Assembly (NCBI RefSeq): GCF_900240945.1
Contig: NZ_OESG01000014.1
Location: 1,470,015-1,534,014 of the forward strand
From: Mycobacterium sp. 3519A
Lineage (GTDB): Bacteria; Actinomycetota; Actinomycetes; Mycobacteriales; Mycobacteriaceae
DNA: 64,000 nt
Direction of reading: 5' to 3'
A model generated the notes under the pieces. It saw only the letters and a program-made list of their open reading frames with translations. It ran no database searches and was not told the DNA's origin. Shown here in pieces: positions 3,023 through 37,600 of the stretch (position 1 is its first letter; every line of letters begins with the position of its first letter). A program made the position numbers and the translations under genes.

Positions 3023-3703
3023 CTAATCGCCCTTGTGGGCGGTCAACAAGAACGCGGGGAACTTGATCCGGCCCTTGTCGTCGGTCGGGTGGACCGGCAT
3101 CTCGAAAGGCGCGTCGGGCACCTCGATCGCATTGGCGTGAATGGCGGCCCGCCGGATGTCGTCGATCTGCCAGTATTGCGAAACCGCCTCGCGCAGTTCG
3201 TCTTCGTCGACCTCGTGCGGCTTCGGTTCCATCTCGGTGGGGAACGCGCCCTTGGCGAACACCAGGATGAAGAAGGAGGCGCCGGGGGCGGCGGCCTTGT
3301 GCACCGAACGCAGGTAACCTTCGCGGCCCTCGACCGGCAGTGAGTGGAACAGCGTGCTGTCGATGACCGTGTTGAAGCGGCCGTCGAATCCGGTGAAATC
3401 GGTGATATCGGCCTGCACGAACGTCGCACTGATCAGCCCCCGCTCCTGCGCGGCGGCGGTGGCGGCGGCGATCGCGGTCGGGCTGAGGTCGACGCCCACC
3501 ACCGTGTAACCGTCGGCGGCCAAGGCCAGTGACAACTCCGCGTGCCCACAGCCGGCGTCGAGCACATCGCTGCGGAACTTGCCCTCGCGGTGCAGCGCGG
3601 CCAATTCGGGCTGTGGCTCACCGATGTTCCACGGCGGCGGCCCCGTGAACGCTCCCTCCTGCCGATACACGCCGTCCCAATCCATCACGTCGTCAGAAGT
3701 CAT
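3023..3703 (-). CDS. Class I SAM-dependent methyltransferase (Rv3699-like)
   Basis: This 226-residue protein has a Rossmann-fold methyltransferase core: VLDAGCGHAELS (motif I, about residues 47-58), VVGVDLSPTA (motif II) and the TFVQADITDF acidic stretch. The substrate is unknown. The opening WDGVYRQ with PPPWNIGEPQPE resembles small-molecule or thiopurine-type methyltransferases of actinobacteria. The ATG at 3703 gives MTSDDVMDWD; an upstream ATG would add eight residues. It abuts egtE tail to tail and lies just after the glutamate-cysteine-ligase-like gene on the same strand, the arrangement remembered for the H37Rv egt locus. A role in thiol metabolism is only suggested by position. Confidence 0.82.
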   Translation of the reverse strand: MTSDDVMDWDGVYRQEGAFTGPPPWNIGEPQPELAALHREGKFRSDVLDAGCGHAELSLALAADGYTVVGVDLSPTAIAAATAAAQERGLISATFVQADITDFTGFDGRFNTVIDSTLFHSLPVEGREGYLRSVHKAAAPGASFFILVFAKGAFPTEMEPKPHEVDEDELREAVSQYWQIDDIRRAAIHANAIEVPDAPFEMPVHPTDDKGRIKFPAFLLTAHKGD

Positions 3704-31372: not shown

Positions 31373-31520
31373 GCCCGATGTAATTCCCCATGGCCGGGGT
31401 AGCCAAACTAAGGAGATAGCCTGCTACGGGCTCGCGCGCCTCATGTCGTGCGGGTCTGTTTAGTTCTACTGTTGGCGGGGAAGTCGACTCCCAGAGTTGT
31501 CGAGTCGCAGGGGGGACGTC

Positions 31521-31760
31521 GTGGTCGGCACCATGATCGCCATTTACTTCGCTGGCTGGATTGTCACGGGTTTCGCCGCGTATGCGGCAGGCAAGCGTCT
31601 TTCACACCGGCAGTCGCCTGCCGTGCACCCGTTGTTGGTCAGTGTCGCCGCAGGCGCGGTCTGGCCGCTGCTGTTGATCGGGTTGGTTGAGTTGAGTTCG
31701 GTGATCGTGCTGACGAAGGTGCCGTCGAAGCCGCGGCCGAGCCTCGGGATCTACGCGTAG
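31521..31760 (+). CDS. Small two-helix membrane protein
   Basis: GTG 31521 follows a strong GGGGGG-type ribosome-binding site and gives a 79-residue protein with two membrane helices (MIAIYFAGWIVTGFAAYAAG and LLVSVAAGAVWPLLLIGLVE), joined by a short basic loop, and a basic tail. An ATG at 31533 is an alternative start. No family is recognised. It ends eight bases from the convergent histidine kinase gene. Confidence 0.6.
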   Translation: MVGTMIAIYFAGWIVTGFAAYAAGKRLSHRQSPAVHPLLVSVAAGAVWPLLLIGLVELSSVIVLTKVPSKPRPSLGIYA

Positions 31761-31767
31761 CAACCCG

Positions 31768-33018
31768 TCATTCGTTCTCCATGACGGGGAGCCGGAGGGT
31801 GAAGGTCGCCCCCTGGCCAGGGGCGGAAGTGACCGTGATGTCGCCGCCGTGGGCTTGGGCGATCTCGCGCACCAGCGTCAACCCGATACCGTACGGTGCC
31901 CGCCGGGCGAGCCCCGTGTGACCCTCGCCGTGTGCGAACCGCGTAAACAGGATGGACATCGTTTCCGGATCGATGCCGATTCCATCGTCGGCGACAGTGA
32001 TGGTGGCCCGTCGGCCTTGACGTCCCACCCGCACGTCGACCCGCCCCCCGGCGTGCCCGTGGGCAAGCGCGTTGTCGATCAGTGACGTCAATGCGCGCCG
32101 GAGCGCGGCCCCTGATCCGACCACACGCAGCGTCGAGCCGCCGGACGTCGTGCATTCGTAGCCAATCGTGACGTCGAGAGATGTGGCGTAAGGCCTCATG
32201 CTGTCGCAGACGTCTGCCGCAAGAGTCGACAGGTCTACGACATCAGACGGTGCCGCGCCGGCCGTCATCGTCGCCGATGCGAGCAGATCGTCGACGATGT
32301 CCGCCAGCACCCTGGTGTCGGCCACCAAGGCATCGGCGTCCCCCTGCAACGCTTCGACATCACCCTCGTGGGCGTGTCGCGCCAGTAACTGCGCGCGGGT
32401 ATGCAGCACTGTCAGCGGTGCCCGCAATTCGTGAGACGCGTCCGCGACGAAACGGCGTTGCAGTGCGAGCGCCGTGGCGAGCGGCCGCACCGATCGCCGC
32501 GTGAAAAGTACGACAACGGCGATCGACGCCAAAATGCCTGCCAATTCCGCGAATCCGAGGGAGAGCAGAAGGCGCTTACGGCTGGCGTGGTACGGCGCCA
32601 TATCGAGAAGTGCCACCACTCTGCCTTGTGCGCGATCGATGACAAGCGCACGCAGCTCGGTACCGTGCGCGTCGACGTCCGTGAAACCCGTTGGGCCGCT
32701 GAGCAATGGAATTCCTGGCTGGCCACCGTCGCTGGTCGATACAGTGCCGCCGTTGTCTCGCAGGACCAACTCCATACCCGGGGGTGGGTCGTTGACGTCA
32801 TCGGCAGTCGATGCCACAGCCTGCAATTGGCTGGCGATCTGCCTGTTCTGCACGCGAACATCAACAACAAAAACCACCGCACCGACCACGACCAGCACCG
32901 CCGCCAACGCCAACGAGGCTTGGACGCCGGCAATCCGTCCTGCGCGGCGCACGACGGTCAAATCGCTTGCCGGCAGCGGCCGCTCAGCGGAATTGCGAGT
33001 GCCCCCGAAGAGGTTCAT
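31768..33018 (-). CDS. Sensor histidine kinase (end of redox operon)
   Basis: The 416-residue product has membrane helices at about 31-53 and 151-172 enclosing an extracytoplasmic sensor of about 95 residues, then HisKA with the phosphorylated His196 (ASHELRAPLTVLH) and an HATPase domain with N box LIDNALAHGH, G1 DDGIGID, and G2 YGIGLTLVREI. The sensor has no recognised fold. Its start overlaps the response regulator stop by ATGA. It is the last gene of the seven-gene operon, so it most likely reports on the same extracytoplasmic redox process. Confidence 0.9.
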   Translation of the reverse strand: MNLFGGTRNSAERPLPASDLTVVRRAGRIAGVQASLALAAVLVVVGAVVFVVDVRVQNRQIASQLQAVASTADDVNDPPPGMELVLRDNGGTVSTSDGGQPGIPLLSGPTGFTDVDAHGTELRALVIDRAQGRVVALLDMAPYHASRKRLLLSLGFAELAGILASIAVVVLFTRRSVRPLATALALQRRFVADASHELRAPLTVLHTRAQLLARHAHEGDVEALQGDADALVADTRVLADIVDDLLASATMTAGAAPSDVVDLSTLAADVCDSMRPYATSLDVTIGYECTTSGGSTLRVVGSGAALRRALTSLIDNALAHGHAGGRVDVRVGRQGRRATITVADDGIGIDPETMSILFTRFAHGEGHTGLARRAPYGIGLTLVREIAQAHGGDITVTSAPGQGATFTLRLPVMENE

Positions 33019-33695
33019 TCCAGACCGAATCGGTAACCCGTCCGATGGACGGTGCGGACGACCTGCTTGCCCAGCTTTCGCCGCAGATAATGCACGTACG
33101 AGTCGACGGCGCCTGGCGTTTCGGCATCATCGAAGACTGAATCGAGCAATTGCGCACGGCTGAACACCCGCTTGGGCGCCGTCATGAACATCGCCAGCAG
33201 CGACGCCTCGCGCGCGGACAACTCCACCTCCGAGCCCGTTGGGGTCGAACCTGTTACCCGCCGAGTGACCCGGTCCAACCGCAGGCCGCCGGCGCACACG
33301 GTGCTCGCCGCGTTGTCGGTGCGCCGCAGCAACGCCCGCACCCGGGCCTGCAATTCTTCGATTTCGAATGGCTTGACCACATAGTCCTGCGCCCCGGCGT
33401 CGAGGCCGTCGACCCGATCGGTCACCGAACCGCGGGCGGTCAGGATCAGCGCCGGTGTTGTCACCCCGCGGGCTCGCAGCAGCGATATCAGTTCGGAGCC
33501 GTCCATCACCGGCAGACCACGATCGACGATCAATGCGTCATACGTGCCCGTAAGGGCGCGGTGCAGCGCCTGCTGGCCGTCGAAGGCAGTATCGACCCGG
33601 TAATCCTGCTTTTCGAAGAGTTCGACGAGCATCGCGCTCAGTGCGCGGTCGTCCTCCACCAGCAGCAACGCGGGAGGAGACTGCGGTGTGGACAC
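33015..33695 (-). CDS. OmpR/PhoB-family response regulator
   Basis: From GTG 33695 the product has 226 residues: a receiver domain (LLLVEDDRALS; phospho-acceptor Asp58 in LIVDRGLPVMDG; Lys in DYVVKPFEIEEL) and a C-terminal winged helix (VELSAREASLLAMFM, then GAVDSYVHYLRRKL, VHRTGYRFGLE). A longer reading from 33764 adds 23 poorly conserved residues and would overlap the ferredoxin gene. It should control transcription in answer to the adjacent kinase, perhaps the operon itself. Confidence 0.9.
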   Translation of the reverse strand: MSTPQSPPALLLVEDDRALSAMLVELFEKQDYRVDTAFDGQQALHRALTGTYDALIVDRGLPVMDGSELISLLRARGVTTPALILTARGSVTDRVDGLDAGAQDYVVKPFEIEELQARVRALLRRTDNAASTVCAGGLRLDRVTRRVTGSTPTGSEVELSAREASLLAMFMTAPKRVFSRAQLLDSVFDDAETPGAVDSYVHYLRRKLGKQVVRTVHRTGYRFGLE

Positions 33696-33738
33696 GTTGC
33701 GAGGGTGCCACGCCAACCTGCCCACGACATGATATTTG

Positions 33739-34005
33739 TTATCGTCGCCGGGATTGCTGCTCATGGGTTTTCGGTGTGGATTTGATCAGCGACAATGCCA
33801 GCCGCGGGCACCGGCTCACAGCAGCACGCGCATCGCCCACCGCCGTTGCCGGTATGGCCGGCTCGCGAGTCCCGTCGCGGACGAGCGGGTAGCCCCACGG
33901 GTCGCGGCGCAGCACCTGCGGGAGCAGCTCCGCGCACAGCCCGCGCCCGTCGCAGCGCGTCCAGTCGATGTGCAGTCGCGAAGGTGTTCTGCTGGCCGCC
34001 TTCAT
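33739..34005 (-). CDS. Single-cluster ferredoxin
   Basis: The 88-residue product begins with a typical small-ferredoxin segment, LHIDWTRCDGRGLCAELLP, and a later SRCPRLAL. Only three cysteines are present (Cys18, Cys24, Cys66): the usual second cysteine of the Cys-X2-Cys-X2-Cys pattern is replaced by Gly21-type sequence, as in ferredoxins with a 3Fe-4S or variant 4Fe-4S cluster. It overlaps the NuoF-like gene by four bases and should carry electrons between that flavoprotein and the membrane protein. Confidence 0.85.
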   Translation of the reverse strand: MKAASRTPSRLHIDWTRCDGRGLCAELLPQVLRRDPWGYPLVRDGTREPAIPATAVGDARAAVSRCPRLALSLIKSTPKTHEQQSRRR

Positions 34006-35192
34006 CTCCTCGTTGCCTCCACTCCTACCTCGCAGCGCCGATGACGGTGATGGTCGATGTCATCGGCGAAAGTCGTCAGCGCGCTGCGGATCAGGCGCGC
34101 GGTTCCGTCGGGGTGTCGACACGACCCGCGGCCGTCGACCAGGTCGACCAATCGGCGGATCTCCCTGATGTGAGTGTTCTGGGCCCGATCGGATGCGAGC
34201 TCGTTGAGCAGATATGCCAGCCTTGGGAGTCCGTTGAGGCACGGCCCGCATTGCCGAGCGCTCTGGCCGGCGAGATATTCGGCGATCATCGCCGTGCGGT
34301 CGAGACCGCACTCGCGCCCGCCGAGCGCGTGGACGATGCCGGTACCCGACACCGGGGTGTTCCCGAGTGCATGCCCAGTAACCCATGTGCCGTGGTAGCC
34401 GCCGACCAGAACGGCGCGCACTGTCGTCGGGTCAGTGGCGCCGTGTTGCTCGATGACATCCGCCAGCACGGCACCCGTCGGCACCTCGAAGACGCCCGGG
34501 TTCGCGATGGCCCCGGACAACGTGACCAACATGCTGCCCGGATTGTCCGCGGCGCCCACTGAGCGAAACCAGTCCGGTCCGAAGCGTGAGATCAGGGCCA
34601 TCTGTGCCAACGTCTCGACGTTGTTGACCAGAGTCGGCTTGCGCCGCACGCCGGATACGGCGGTAACCACCTTGCGGTCGCGCGGTAATGCCGGACCTCC
34701 TTCGATACGCCTGACGAGCGCTGATTCCTCTCCCGCGACAAACGTGTTGGGCGCCTCGACCACAGTTACGTTGTGCCGGTTGATCTTCGCTGCGCGCCGT
34801 TCCGAGAGCGCACGCTCCGCGGTGGCCACGACGTGGGTGGGCACGTACAGGTAGACCTTCGTGGCGCCGACCGCCCCGGCCGCGAGTTCGAGCCCGTCGA
34901 GCATCAGGTGTGGTGCACGGGTCAAAACGACCGCATCTTTGCGGCTCAGTGGTTCGCCCTCGGCGCCGTTCGCCACCACGACGGACTTGTTGCCGTTCAC
35001 GGAGGCGATCTTGCGACCCGCGGAAAAGCCCGCGCCGCCACGCCCGCGCAGTCCCGCCGCATCAACCGCCGAAATCAATTCGGCGCCAGTCATTTCGGGC
35101 AATGCACCGAACCGGCTACGGTGTGTGGCCAAGCTGGGTCCGTCAGCGGCCAACAGCCGCGGCATCGGGGGTGGTGTGGGAGAAACGATCAT
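34002..35192 (-). CDS. NuoF-like NADH-binding flavoprotein
   Basis: The 396-residue product resembles the NADH-dehydrogenase 51-kDa subunit. It has the FMN/NADH motifs GLRGRGGAGFSAGRK (residues 48-61) and ANGAEGEPLSRKD (74-86), a SLBB-like part around PTGAVLADVIEQHG, and a C-terminal Fe-S region. Cysteines at 295, 315, 318 and 358 (QCGPC and GSCRHPDG) are the likely 4Fe-4S ligands; this differs from the Cys-X2-Cys-X2-Cys form of true NuoF. It probably takes electrons from NAD(P)H and passes them to the co-encoded ferredoxin. It overlaps both neighbours by ATGA. Confidence 0.87.
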   Translation of the reverse strand: MIVSPTPPPMPRLLAADGPSLATHRSRFGALPEMTGAELISAVDAAGLRGRGGAGFSAGRKIASVNGNKSVVVANGAEGEPLSRKDAVVLTRAPHLMLDGLELAAGAVGATKVYLYVPTHVVATAERALSERRAAKINRHNVTVVEAPNTFVAGEESALVRRIEGGPALPRDRKVVTAVSGVRRKPTLVNNVETLAQMALISRFGPDWFRSVGAADNPGSMLVTLSGAIANPGVFEVPTGAVLADVIEQHGATDPTTVRAVLVGGYHGTWVTGHALGNTPVSGTGIVHALGGRECGLDRTAMIAEYLAGQSARQCGPCLNGLPRLAYLLNELASDRAQNTHIREIRRLVDLVDGRGSCRHPDGTARLIRSALTTFADDIDHHRHRRCEVGVEATRR

Positions 35193-35752
35193 CTTGCCCG
35201 CTCAGACACTCGCGCGTCGGCGTACTCGGCGAAGCCGGACCGCACCCGCCACAGCAGCGCAGCGCCGACAATCGCGGCACAGCCGCCGGCGAATGCGACG
35301 AACCACACGCGGTACGCATCGGTTCCGTTGCCGAGGGCGTGCGTGAAAGCGATCGGCCACAACGCGTAGGTCGCCCAGTGGATCGCGCGGAACCCACGCA
35401 CTCCGATACGTTGGCGCAGCAGGCTGGTGACGACGATGACCAGCATCAGATCGAAACCTAGTGTTCCGATCCCTTGCCAGAGAGGGCGATACTCTCCGAG
35501 GAACGGCACGACGAAGTCGACCAACCTCAGTTGTGCGTAGGGATCAAGGAACAACAGCGTCACGTGCAGTACCACGAGGAGCGTTCCCGCAAGTGCGGTG
35601 AAACGGTGTACATCTGAGACGGCGAACCGAGGCAAGGCCAACAGCGGTCGTCCCGATCGCGTTGCGATGCCGAGACCCACTGAAATCGTCAGGAAGGCAA
35701 GGGCGGTGATCCCGCAACCGCGGCCGACGGCCCAGAGCGCTTCGTCGGTCAT
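35189..35752 (-). CDS. Ferric-reductase-like bis-haem membrane protein
   Basis: The 187-residue product has five or six membrane helices and the ferric-reductase/MsrQ layout: paired histidines in one helix (His49 in DVHRFTA and His63 in VLHVTLL) and in another (His125 in IHWATYA and His138 in FTHALG), 13-14 residues apart, enough for two b-haems across the membrane. No FAD/NAD domain is attached, so electrons must come from separate proteins, here the NuoF-like flavoprotein and ferredoxin. It is coupled to apbE by ATGA. Confidence 0.86.
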   Translation of the reverse strand: MTDEALWAVGRGCGITALAFLTISVGLGIATRSGRPLLALPRFAVSDVHRFTALAGTLLVVLHVTLLFLDPYAQLRLVDFVVPFLGEYRPLWQGIGTLGFDLMLVIVVTSLLRQRIGVRGFRAIHWATYALWPIAFTHALGNGTDAYRVWFVAFAGGCAAIVGAALLWRVRSGFAEYADARVSERAR

Positions 35753-36675
35753 GAGCGGGCCGCCGGTCCTTCGTCTGGCCAACCGCCCATCGTGCGCACC
35801 AACATGTCGCTGTCCACTAATCGCGCCGGCATGCCAAGGGCGGCAATCCATTCCGGCGCCCGTAGCCCGCGAACGACCGCCGCTGTGCTGACGGTGTTGG
35901 CGGCGAAACAGGATTGTGCTGCGACGCTCACCGTGCGCCACACCGGTGTTGACGACCGGCCGGTCCGTGGGTCGAGGATGTGATGAACGGGTTTGCCGCC
36001 ATGGCGCCATCGACGATGCAGCGTGCTCGACGTCGCCACCGCGGCGCCCGCAGGCAGTGCTATCGCGCTCGCCGGCTCGCCGTCGCCGTCCTCAACCAGG
36101 ATCTGCCAACCGTCCTCGGGTGCTGTGCCCGCCGTTGCGATGTCACCGCCGAGGTTGATCAAAACTCCGCAGCCTGTTGCGGATAGCACGCGCCGAGCGC
36201 ATCGGTCAGCGGCAACCGCCTTCGCTGTCGCGCCGAGGTCGAGCACAACGCCTGGCGGTACGGTCACCATGCGGTCATGCAAAGCGACCATCGACCACGT
36301 CGGCGCGGTCGTCATCGGGTCTGCGAGCGGACGGTTGTCGGCGAGTGCGTCGAAGTCGCGGTCGTATCCGAGCTCGATCAAAGCCGCACCGACGGTCGGA
36401 TCGACATCACCATCGGTCAACCGGGCTGCAGACAACGACGCGTCGAGCAGGTCCGCAAGGAGCTCAGATATTTCGGTCGGTTTCCCGGCAGTGGTTGCCA
36501 GCGTATTGATTTCGGAGTCGGGCCGAAACCGCGACGCGGCGGCTTCGATGGCGTCGAGTTCGGCATCGACTTCGCGACGCGCGGCAAGCAGGCTAGGAGA
36601 ATCGGTGACGACGACCTGCATGTCGGTGCTCCACCGTTGCCACTCGGCGGTCGCGAGTCCTTCCGCGACGGTCAT
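35749..36675 (-). CDS. apbE: FAD:protein FMN transferase (ApbE family)
   Basis: ApbE attaches FMN from FAD to a Thr or Ser of a target protein. The 308-residue product has the family motifs RFRPDSEINTL (50-59), LDLGATAKAVAADR (145-158), NLGGDIATAG (174-183) and HHILDPRTG (231-239). The C-terminal metal-site motif, usually Asp-X3-Thr, reads Asn260-X3-Thr264 (FAANTVSTA), so one Mg ligand is changed. No lipobox or signal peptide is seen from ATG 36675. It overlaps the genes on both sides. No target with an FMN-binding domain is recognised in the window. Confidence 0.88.
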   Translation of the reverse strand: MTVAEGLATAEWQRWSTDMQVVVTDSPSLLAARREVDAELDAIEAAASRFRPDSEINTLATTAGKPTEISELLADLLDASLSAARLTDGDVDPTVGAALIELGYDRDFDALADNRPLADPMTTAPTWSMVALHDRMVTVPPGVVLDLGATAKAVAADRCARRVLSATGCGVLINLGGDIATAGTAPEDGWQILVEDGDGEPASAIALPAGAAVATSSTLHRRWRHGGKPVHHILDPRTGRSSTPVWRTVSVAAQSCFAANTVSTAAVVRGLRAPEWIAALGMPARLVDSDMLVRTMGGWPDEGPAARS

Positions 36676-37142
36676 GATCCGCGCGACCGTGAGATCCGGG
36701 GCGAGAAGTTCGGAGCCATCACGGTTGTGGGGGTCAGTGCGCGCCGCTGCGTCGTCCGCGGCGCCGTCGCCTTGGGCGCCTGGCTCGAATGCGTGGCGGG
36801 GGCTTGTATGGCGGTCGTCTCGGGGACGTACGTCTGCGCGGGTGTATAGGTGCTGACCGGTGCCTGCTCGACCGTGGTCTCCGGCTGTGGTGGCGGCGGC
36901 GGAGCGGGCGGCGGCGTTGTGTTTGTGGCCGTCAGAATCGGCGCGAGGGGAGGTGGGGGCGTGGTGACGGGTTGTTGACTCGGTGCCGCCTGCTCCACCA
37001 CGGTTGGCGGTTCGGCGGGCGGTGGCTGCACTGTGTCCGCGTAGGCCAGTGCCGAAGCGCCTGCGACGCCTGCGATGCCGAGGCCGGCCAACGCCCACGA
37101 CGCAGCCGTGGCCCTGCGGAATCCCGATCGCGGTGAGTTCAT
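36672..37142 (-). CDS. Membrane-anchored Pro/Thr-rich protein (first gene of redox operon)
   Basis: The 156-residue product has a basic start (MNSPRSGFRRAT), one membrane helix at about 14-36 (ending ALAYADT, perhaps cleaved) and an extracytoplasmic tail rich in Pro, Thr, Gln and Val, with PPPPP runs and repeated VEQAP/TYTPAQ-like units. No flavinylation motif (Asp-X2-Ser/Thr-Gly-Ala-Ser/Thr) is visible. It overlaps apbE by ATGA. It may be a periplasmic scaffold or an atypical electron acceptor; no family assignment is possible. Confidence 0.7.
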   Translation of the reverse strand: MNSPRSGFRRATAASWALAGLGIAGVAGASALAYADTVQPPPAEPPTVVEQAAPSQQPVTTPPPPLAPILTATNTTPPPAPPPPPQPETTVEQAPVSTYTPAQTYVPETTAIQAPATHSSQAPKATAPRTTQRRALTPTTVMAPNFSPRISRSRGS

Positions 37143-37247
37143 ACCTGCCGATGCTGGCAAGCGCTTCTTCGAGCCTTCCAAGAACTGGCGGGCTGGCGAC
37201 AGCAACAAGGCCCGGACCGTGTCGATCGGTCAGGGCCCTGTACAGCT

Positions 37248-37365
37248 TCGGATGAACGAGCAAGCTCGCTCATCTCTCGGCTCAGTCGGGGTCTTGACAC
37301 TTCGTGTCTTCGACCCCCTCCATCGCCTCGGATGAACGAGCAAGCTCGCTCATCTCTCGGCTCAG

Positions 37366-37372
<7 letters not shown>
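37248..37372. repeat. 45-base direct repeat including the tRNA-Pro 3' end
   Basis: The same 45 bases occur at 37248-37292 and 37328-37372, separated by 35 bases. The second copy supplies the last six bases of the tRNA-Pro gene; the first is a duplicate outside it. Each contains a hairpin (GATGAACGAG, CAAG, CTCGCTCATC; nine of ten pairs) that probably ends tRNA transcription on the minus strand. The 35-base spacer has its own GACAC-TTC-GTGTC hairpin. Confidence 0.75.
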
Positions 37373-37439
<67 letters not shown>

Positions 37440-37600
37440 CGTGAAGCCACGACAGCGTATCGCACCGACCGGCGGTGAAGCCAAACGGCTTTTCATGCCG
37501 TCTGCCAGCAGAGGCGTAGATCACGACACGCCTCGGGATGGATGTGAGTTGTCGGTGACGTTATGCACACTGACAGCAGTAACTACGAATCGAGGCAGAA

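Follow-up and report, generated by a model that had tools for sequence, protein, structure and literature searches.

The operon described here occupies positions 31768-37142 on the minus strand of a 64,000-nucleotide stretch of Mycobacterium sp. 3519A DNA (hereafter the window; G000:C14:1470015-1534014, from a 7.3-Mb genome). Its seven genes probably encode a regulated transmembrane electron conduit, in which the terminal carrier would be a flavin bound covalently to the C-terminus of a disordered tether protein. Judged from its sequence, the tether belongs, with a probability of roughly 0.68, to a widespread actinobacterial class of substrates of the flavin transferase ApbE that lack a flavin-binding domain and would carry flavin mononucleotide (FMN) on the last, or nearly the last, Ser or Thr of a short disordered membrane tether, which would act as a swinging arm. 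The broad type of system is known, and the unexpected part is the tether as a probable new kind of ApbE substrate. A preliminary description of this DNA had listed seven minus-strand genes of the families given below, most of them overlapping by ATGA; the frames were all confirmed at their coordinates, Pfam matches bore out the families, and the four-base ATGA overlap was found at five of the six junctions, the exception being that between the genes for the ferredoxin and the response regulator (RR). The features of the operon are as follows.

36672..37142, minus strand: tether protein of 156 amino acids with a Pro/Thr-rich low-complexity linker; no Pfam family; proposed ApbE substrate
36675..36686, minus strand: codons of the C-terminal S-R-G-S of the tether; the proposed flavinylation site is the last Ser (codon 36675-36677)
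37041..37103, minus strand: hydrophobic anchor of the tether, approximately residues 14-34, with FRR just before it; placed from the sequence and the charge balance of the family
35749..36675, minus strand: ApbE-type FAD (flavin adenine dinucleotide):protein FMN transferase of 308 amino acids; PF02424
35189..35752, minus strand: MsrQ-like or ferric-reductase-like membrane cytochrome of 187 amino acids; PF01794; H49, H63, H125 and H138
34002..35192, minus strand: NuoF-like flavoprotein of 396 amino acids; Complex1_51K, SLBB and NADH_4Fe-4S; A312 in place of the first cluster Cys, with C315, C318 and C358 kept
33739..34005, minus strand: small ferredoxin with Cys at C18, C24 and C66; Fer4_15; probably [3Fe-4S]
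33015..33764, minus strand: OmpR/PhoB-type RR; Response_reg and Trans_reg_C; true start probably downstream, at V24
31768..33018, minus strand: membrane histidine kinase (HK) of 416 amino acids; HisKA and HATPase_c

In Actinobacteria, the product of the gene just before apbE consists of a membrane anchor, a low-complexity linker that varies between loci and a C-terminal end of the form [S/T]-x-[G/A]-[S/T]-stop. The hypothesis of a tail motif was set from 21 loci, in which many of the genes upstream of apbE (or of the MsrQ-like gene) had an anchor, a linker and an ApbE-motif-like end, and it was then tested on 80 further loci, the best 80 of at least 358 confirmed relatives found with the ApbE alignment in named genomes. 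These loci came from Mycolicibacterium, Nocardia, Rhodococcus, Frankia, Actinoplanes relatives, Amycolatopsis, Arthrobacter, Cryobacterium, Streptomyces and metagenome-assembled genomes, two of which are labelled Acidobacteria and Bacillota and may be misbinned. The upstream open reading frame (ORF) was chosen by a rule blind to its C-terminus (stop near the ApbE start, G+C content at third codon positions, hydrophobic stretch). This rule gave a candidate in 64 of the 80 loci, of which 57 ended in [ST]-x-[GA]-[ST]-stop; without L065, which is the same record as L030 of the loci that gave rise to the hypothesis, the blind figure is 56/63. After correction, the tail matched in 58 of 61 loci: the pick at L061, in a wrong frame, was replaced by a frame that was sought for its SRGS end and is thus not blind to the motif, and L109 and L112 (no MsrQ or NuoF match in the locus) and L135 (a split mycobacterial locus) were dropped. 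Three further loci (L059, L063 and L128) repeat genomes of the genus set, so that the 80 loci and the 20 genus genomes overlap in part. Among non-redundant tails 51 of 54 matched. Of the 16 loci without a candidate, six contain a matching tail (L071, L072, L081, L086, L096 and L102), and two (L083 and L087) begin at a contig end.

The same pattern was absent from the C-termini of the other proteins of these loci (0/344: ApbE 0/80, MsrQ 0/67, NuoF 0/58, ferredoxin 0/69, RR 0/34, HK 0/36). Shuffling of the last 50 residues in 2000 runs left on average 2.4 of the 61 tails matching, and never more than 10; elsewhere, the match rate was 108/2745 for internal four-residue segments and 5/485 for other called ORFs. 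Counted back from the stop, position -1 is Ser in 59 of the 61 tails, position -2 is Gly or Ala in 58 and position -4 is Ser or Thr in 60, while position -3 is Gly in 24 and Ser in 17. Position -7, where the known motif has Asp, is His in 31 and Gln in 9 (40/61). The last codons are TCG (22), TCA (20), TCC (17), ACG (1) and GGA (1), Gly is encoded by all four of its codons, and the motif was matched in 19/20 tails with an ATGA stop context, 23/23 with GTGA and 16/18 with neither. Within the genus, the tether ends in S-[RHK]-G-S in all 20 genomes that carry it, including two in which no overlapping downstream gene was called; in mycobacterial tethers, His tends to lie at -8 and position -3 is Arg, His or Lys. 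In some more distant MsrQ loci, two small residues come after the motif (L047 TGAS-GA, L055 TGGS-GG and L048 SKAS-GG).

The tether itself matched no Pfam family at E ≤ 0.1, and its linker is probably disordered, to judge from its composition. The possibility that it is a frameshifted FMN_bind protein was rejected, as its orthologues stop at the same motif and have no such domain. The preliminary description had seen it correctly as an anchored Pro-rich protein and had missed its probable role as an ApbE substrate via the C-terminal motif.

ApbE recognises D-x-x-[S/T]-G-A-[S/T] and attaches FMN to the last residue, with Thr preferred over Ser; seven motif residues suffice, terminal tags work best, and replacement of D by A has a minor effect (PMC12052999). 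The window ApbE is a clear family member (PF02424, E = 3.1e-49, 168.3 bits against a cut-off of 25.6) and the single PF02424 match in the genome, with D146, G176-G177-D178 and H231-H232 of the core invariant in 34 aligned sequences. The alignments comprised 14 of the 21 extracted relatives plus the window (A1), 16 of 20 (A2) and 33 of 58 (A4). No hydrophobic lead was found on ApbE in any of 76 loci, nor a signal peptide or lipobox of the exported type; cytosolic ApbE proteins are known (PMC12052999). FMN_bind (PF04205) had no match in this genome or in any other of the 148 sampled genus genomes, and the same search was positive in 11 of 61 genomes when the sample was widened to other families of the order. 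DUF2271 was found neither in this genome nor in any of the 20 carrier genomes. That some other protein of the genome is a hidden FMN_bind or DUF2271 substrate was thus rejected for want of any match, with DUF3570 and Flavodoxin_4 not searched. The operon ApbE is an orphan, without any searched-for known substrate domain in its genome. Because ApbE is orphaned, FMN_bind is absent and the tail is conserved and motif-like, the tether is the likely substrate.

Loci that do encode FMN_bind are informative. At the tether position of L042 (genome G039) lies a protein with an anchor, a Pro-rich linker, an FMN_bind domain (PF04205, 31.8 bits) and the motif GVSGATYTS, and a paralogous operon in the same genome (L043) encodes an anchor, a linker and an end of ...SGGS with no domain. 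The ApbE of L042 is of the same family as that of the window, and FMN_bind stands at the same operon place as the tail-only tether. The anchor-linker-domain layout recurs in FMN_bind proteins at six loci of the order (L157-L160, L162 and L163), and at L157 an ApbE start without a signal peptide lies beside FMN_bind (frame read by eye). Since FMN_bind carriers share both the layout and the operon place, the tail-only tether looks like an FMN carrier reduced to its flavinylation site. An FMN_bind gene between those for MsrQ and NuoF was also sought in distant loci, and none was present in the frames read (14 loci).

In the MsrQ-like protein (PF01794, Ferric_reduct; E = 7.5e-8, 32.9 bits against a cut-off of 28), H49, H63, H125 and H138 are invariant in 19 of 19 aligned sequences, from which the three most distant loci (L047, L048 and L055) were left out, and the four His would fit two haems. 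The NuoF-like protein retains the FMN/NADH-binding region (PF01512, E = 1.4e-32), and its family profile aligned over positions 29-388 with Thermus chain 1 of 2fug, the complex I 51-kDa subunit (E = 3.4e-72). The preliminary description had placed it in the right family; however, the first of the four cluster Cys of true NuoF is missing, with Ala for the first Cys of SCGxCxPC in 17/17 aligned sequences, and the four-Cys motif is incomplete. It also differs from complex I in that a small ferredoxin is encoded alongside it instead of complex I subunits. C315, C318 and C358 are invariant in the family, and C295 and C387 are conserved at ≥90%; given this conservation, a different fourth cluster ligand is possible. 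In the ferredoxin, Cys at C18, C24 and C66 are kept in 20/20 sequences, which suggests a [3Fe-4S] cluster.

The MsrQ-like protein was found in 20 of the 148 genus genomes. ApbE at E<1e-40 was present in exactly those 20, with two weak partial matches (6e-8 and 9e-5) in genomes without the MsrQ-like protein, and the tether at E<1e-6 was present in exactly the same 20, a search scored on 25 candidates per genome in which weak relatives could be missed. The loci of all 20 also contain the NuoF-like protein, the ferredoxin and a close RR, and 19 the HK (the contig ends in G150). The carrier genomes are related and not independent; the recurrence of the set is more than chance. Genes of the set lie apart in at least eight of the 20. 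In six of the 20 (G004, G009, G018, G024, G077 and G122), tether, MsrQ and NuoF genes are separated from distant RR, HK, ApbE and ferredoxin genes, and in G117 and G160 the tether gene is found by itself at another site; in G150, the two gene groups are on separate small contigs. This retention of unlinked parts argues that the tether, ApbE, the MsrQ-like protein and their partners work together. Parts of the set also occur in diverse other Actinobacteria. The co-inheritance together with the His and Cys conservation points to one functional unit and supports, by sequence, the earlier proposal of a transmembrane conduit comprising an NAD(P)H dehydrogenase-like protein, a ferredoxin and two haems, plus a two-component system.

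The stand-alone tethers of G117 and G160 lie at L154 1501-1998 and L153 1498-1983, that of G160 being full-length. The main operon of G160 (L147, ~3080-3270, between the HK and ApbE genes) retains a shrunken tether-like remnant, an N-terminal part and a ...PRGS end in one frame.

The sequences show the gene set, the co-inheritance, the conserved haem and cluster ligands, the absence of FMN_bind and the conserved tail motif, whereas the disorder of the linker, the modification of the tail by ApbE, its topology, the direction of electron flow, the acceptor and the signal are inferred. The NuoF-like protein would oxidise NAD(P)H and pass electrons to the small ferredoxin, from which they would reach the two haems of the MsrQ-like protein and cross the membrane. 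ApbE, lacking a signal peptide, would attach FMN to the C-terminal Ser of the tether, and the haems would reduce this flavin. With the anchor and the probably disordered linker, the flavin at the far end could then reach from the haem, by swinging, to an acceptor outside, and the RR/HK pair would control the system. The kinase may sense the outer side, as the preliminary description proposed. The tether has a mean charge of +2.8 before the anchor and -1.0 after it (60 proteins, with L116 also omitted), which predicts an N-in/C-out orientation with the tail outside the membrane. A strict twin-arginine translocation (Tat) signal was ruled out (0/60), and an Arg-Arg pair precedes the anchor in 41/60. 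As ApbE is cytosolic by sequence, the tail would be flavinylated before export. The search for an outer partner conserved across loci, from which the acceptor might be named, gave nothing decisive: recurrent neighbours are RR/HK-type proteins, together with a membrane protein in six loci, the one scanned representative of which has DUF2231.

Several observations weigh against flavinylation of the tail as proposed. The window SRGS is a weak version of the ApbE motif, differing from [ST]GA[ST] at positions 2 and 3, with the less preferred Ser at position 4 and no D, and none of the seven operon proteins contains the canonical [ST]GA[ST]; stronger versions end the proteins of L115 (SGGT) and L105 (TNGS). 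N260 of the ApbE family is an invariant Asn, at a position where the three PDB sequences compared have the canonical C-terminal Asp of the metal site, a Mg ligand. With no hydrophobic lead on ApbE, a tail predicted to lie outside and no strict Tat motif, the modification would have to precede export, an arrangement also read at the FMN_bind locus L157. Three of the 61 tails miss the strict pattern (SGGTHS, SGGTSSG and SGSS), and in eight of the 80 ApbE loci, all mycobacterial, the stretch examined contains no tether. In addition, Gly-to-Ala and Ala-to-Val changes in the motif of Klebsiella pneumoniae fumarate reductase cut flavinylation to ~50% (PMC12052999).

Four other explanations were weighed against the flavinylated outer tether. 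The tether might be unflavinylated, with its conserved tip serving as a docking peptide in the assembly or anchoring of the complex. Strict co-inheritance with a membrane protein would suit any partner, and the anchor end of the tether is conserved too; however, the tip is similar to the ApbE motif residue for residue, ApbE would be left without any searched-for known substrate domain, and docking does not explain why an FMN_bind domain occupies the same place in L042. We consider it unlikely, if the best of the four. Alternatively, the tether could be flavinylated with its tail in the cytoplasm, as a swinging arm among the NuoF-like protein, the ferredoxin and the inner haem. The absence of a hydrophobic lead on ApbE in all 76 loci would then be readily explained, and the NuoF-like protein and ferredoxin are of cytosolic types (localisation from family knowledge). 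Nevertheless, the charge balance around the anchor predicts the opposite topology, the domain-bearing protein of L042 shares the anchor-linker layout, and PMC8238504 surveyed FMN_bind proteins that had been chosen as extracytosolic; this arrangement is likewise unlikely. It is improbable that ApbE has another role altogether, flavinylating the NuoF-like or another protein or splitting FAD for FMN. Such hydrolysis is known from Treponema Ftp, an ApbE relative (PMC4767422), and the Asn at the aligned Asp position could change the chemistry. Yet the canonical motif is found in none of the operon proteins, and the tail is the sole motif-like feature found conserved across loci, relaxed internal motifs of the other proteins not having been scanned. 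Finally, the window tail does end in TCATGA and ApbE likewise ends in Ser, but that the Gly-Ser ends are a by-product of this stop/start overlap or of low-complexity composition is extremely improbable given the match counts across stop contexts, the varied last and Gly codons, the low shuffle mean and the SRGS kept by the unlinked tethers of G117 and G160, where no overlapping gene was called.

The preliminary description did not know this exact set as a described mycobacterial system. For the broad type this did not hold: MsrQ-like flavinylation clusters with apbE were reported from Actinobacteria in 2021, 31 of them with a NuoF-like PF10589 protein (PMC8238504). Those systems share with the present one a PF01794 cytochrome, apbE and a partner on the NAD(P)H side, here NuoF-like. 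They differ in that they typically include a gene for an FMN-binding domain, FMN_bind being the typical ApbE target (PMC8238504), where the present operon has the domain-less tether at the same place. FMN_red substrates offer a second parallel: these apbE-associated proteins carry the motif on a C-terminal extension that is unstructured, and their flavinylation was confirmed by co-expression (PMC11334425). They keep a folded flavin-binding domain with the sites near it; in the tether none is recognised and the motif forms the last four residues. For the synthetic flavin tag, a seven-residue terminal motif in which D can be replaced is enough for ApbE; that tag is engineered, whereas the tether would be a natural counterpart. 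The membrane subunit of MsrPQ methionine sulfoxide repair also binds haem, belongs to the same superfamily and has conserved His, but no molybdoenzyme-type oxidoreductase (MsrP) is among the seven proteins, the rest of the genome not having been searched for one, and NAD(P)H is the proposed electron source. Among the papers listed in searches of open-licence PubMed Central (no preprints), none dealt with a tether that lacks a domain and is flavinylated at its C-terminus.

Genomes with orphan apbE (4%, 670 of the filtered set, after addition of DUF2271 and DUF3570) imply unidentified ApbE substrates (PMC8238504). The window ApbE, having no signal peptide, would fall outside the filter of that study, yet it raises the same substrate question, and the tail motif provides a concrete and testable candidate substrate for many Actinobacteria. 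If the proposal is correct, the tether would be an electron carrier without a flavin-binding fold, its flavin borne on a flexible arm that in principle resembles those of lipoyl or biotin. The tether would likewise constitute a natural minimal flavin tag and a substrate for ApbE proteins that lack signal peptides, and non-model mycobacteria, Nocardia, Frankia, Actinoplanes relatives and Arthrobacter would gain a further electron route, from NAD(P)H to the envelope.

Some loci vary around this theme. L048 (G018:C36) is a second system in a mycobacterium, with a longer MsrQ-like frame (495 amino acids), a separate ApbE and, close by, distant relatives of the RR and HK; no NuoF-like gene was detected in it, and its upstream anchored protein ends in SKASGG. 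In L053 (G049), an ApbE of the same family is preceded by a tail that ends in SGGS, and the contig stops just past ApbE; the whole G049 genome gave no MsrQ-like match. In L049 and L052 (G004 and G024), a metal-type P-ATPase-like gene adjoins the RR gene, and an FkbM-like methyltransferase gene lies between those for HK and ApbE (both named by reading the sequence, with no family search). The small membrane protein that recurs near the system (L061 6984-7460, and also L058, L059, L060, L065 and L066) matches DUF2231 (PF09990) in the case of L061.

As listed, the RR frame of the window overlaps the ferredoxin gene by 26 bases. Its start is probably later, at the GTG of V24, because the L049 orthologue begins MPTP.... 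The one-strand seven-gene order of the window is also found in G133, G147 and L057. A simple promoter scan of 31400-37500 showed no sigma-70-type site, which carries little weight for a mycobacterium. A tRNA-Pro gene lies just upstream of the operon (37365-37439). Its role as a general integration site was rejected, no tRNA-Pro being present in the scanned loci of 20 relatives, which are short stretches and in some cases one record under two identifiers. Between this gene and the operon lies an exact 41-base direct repeat with an inverted repeat inside it (37248-37288 and 37328-37368, minus strand), and a 21-base part of it has exact matches in the genome only at these two places.

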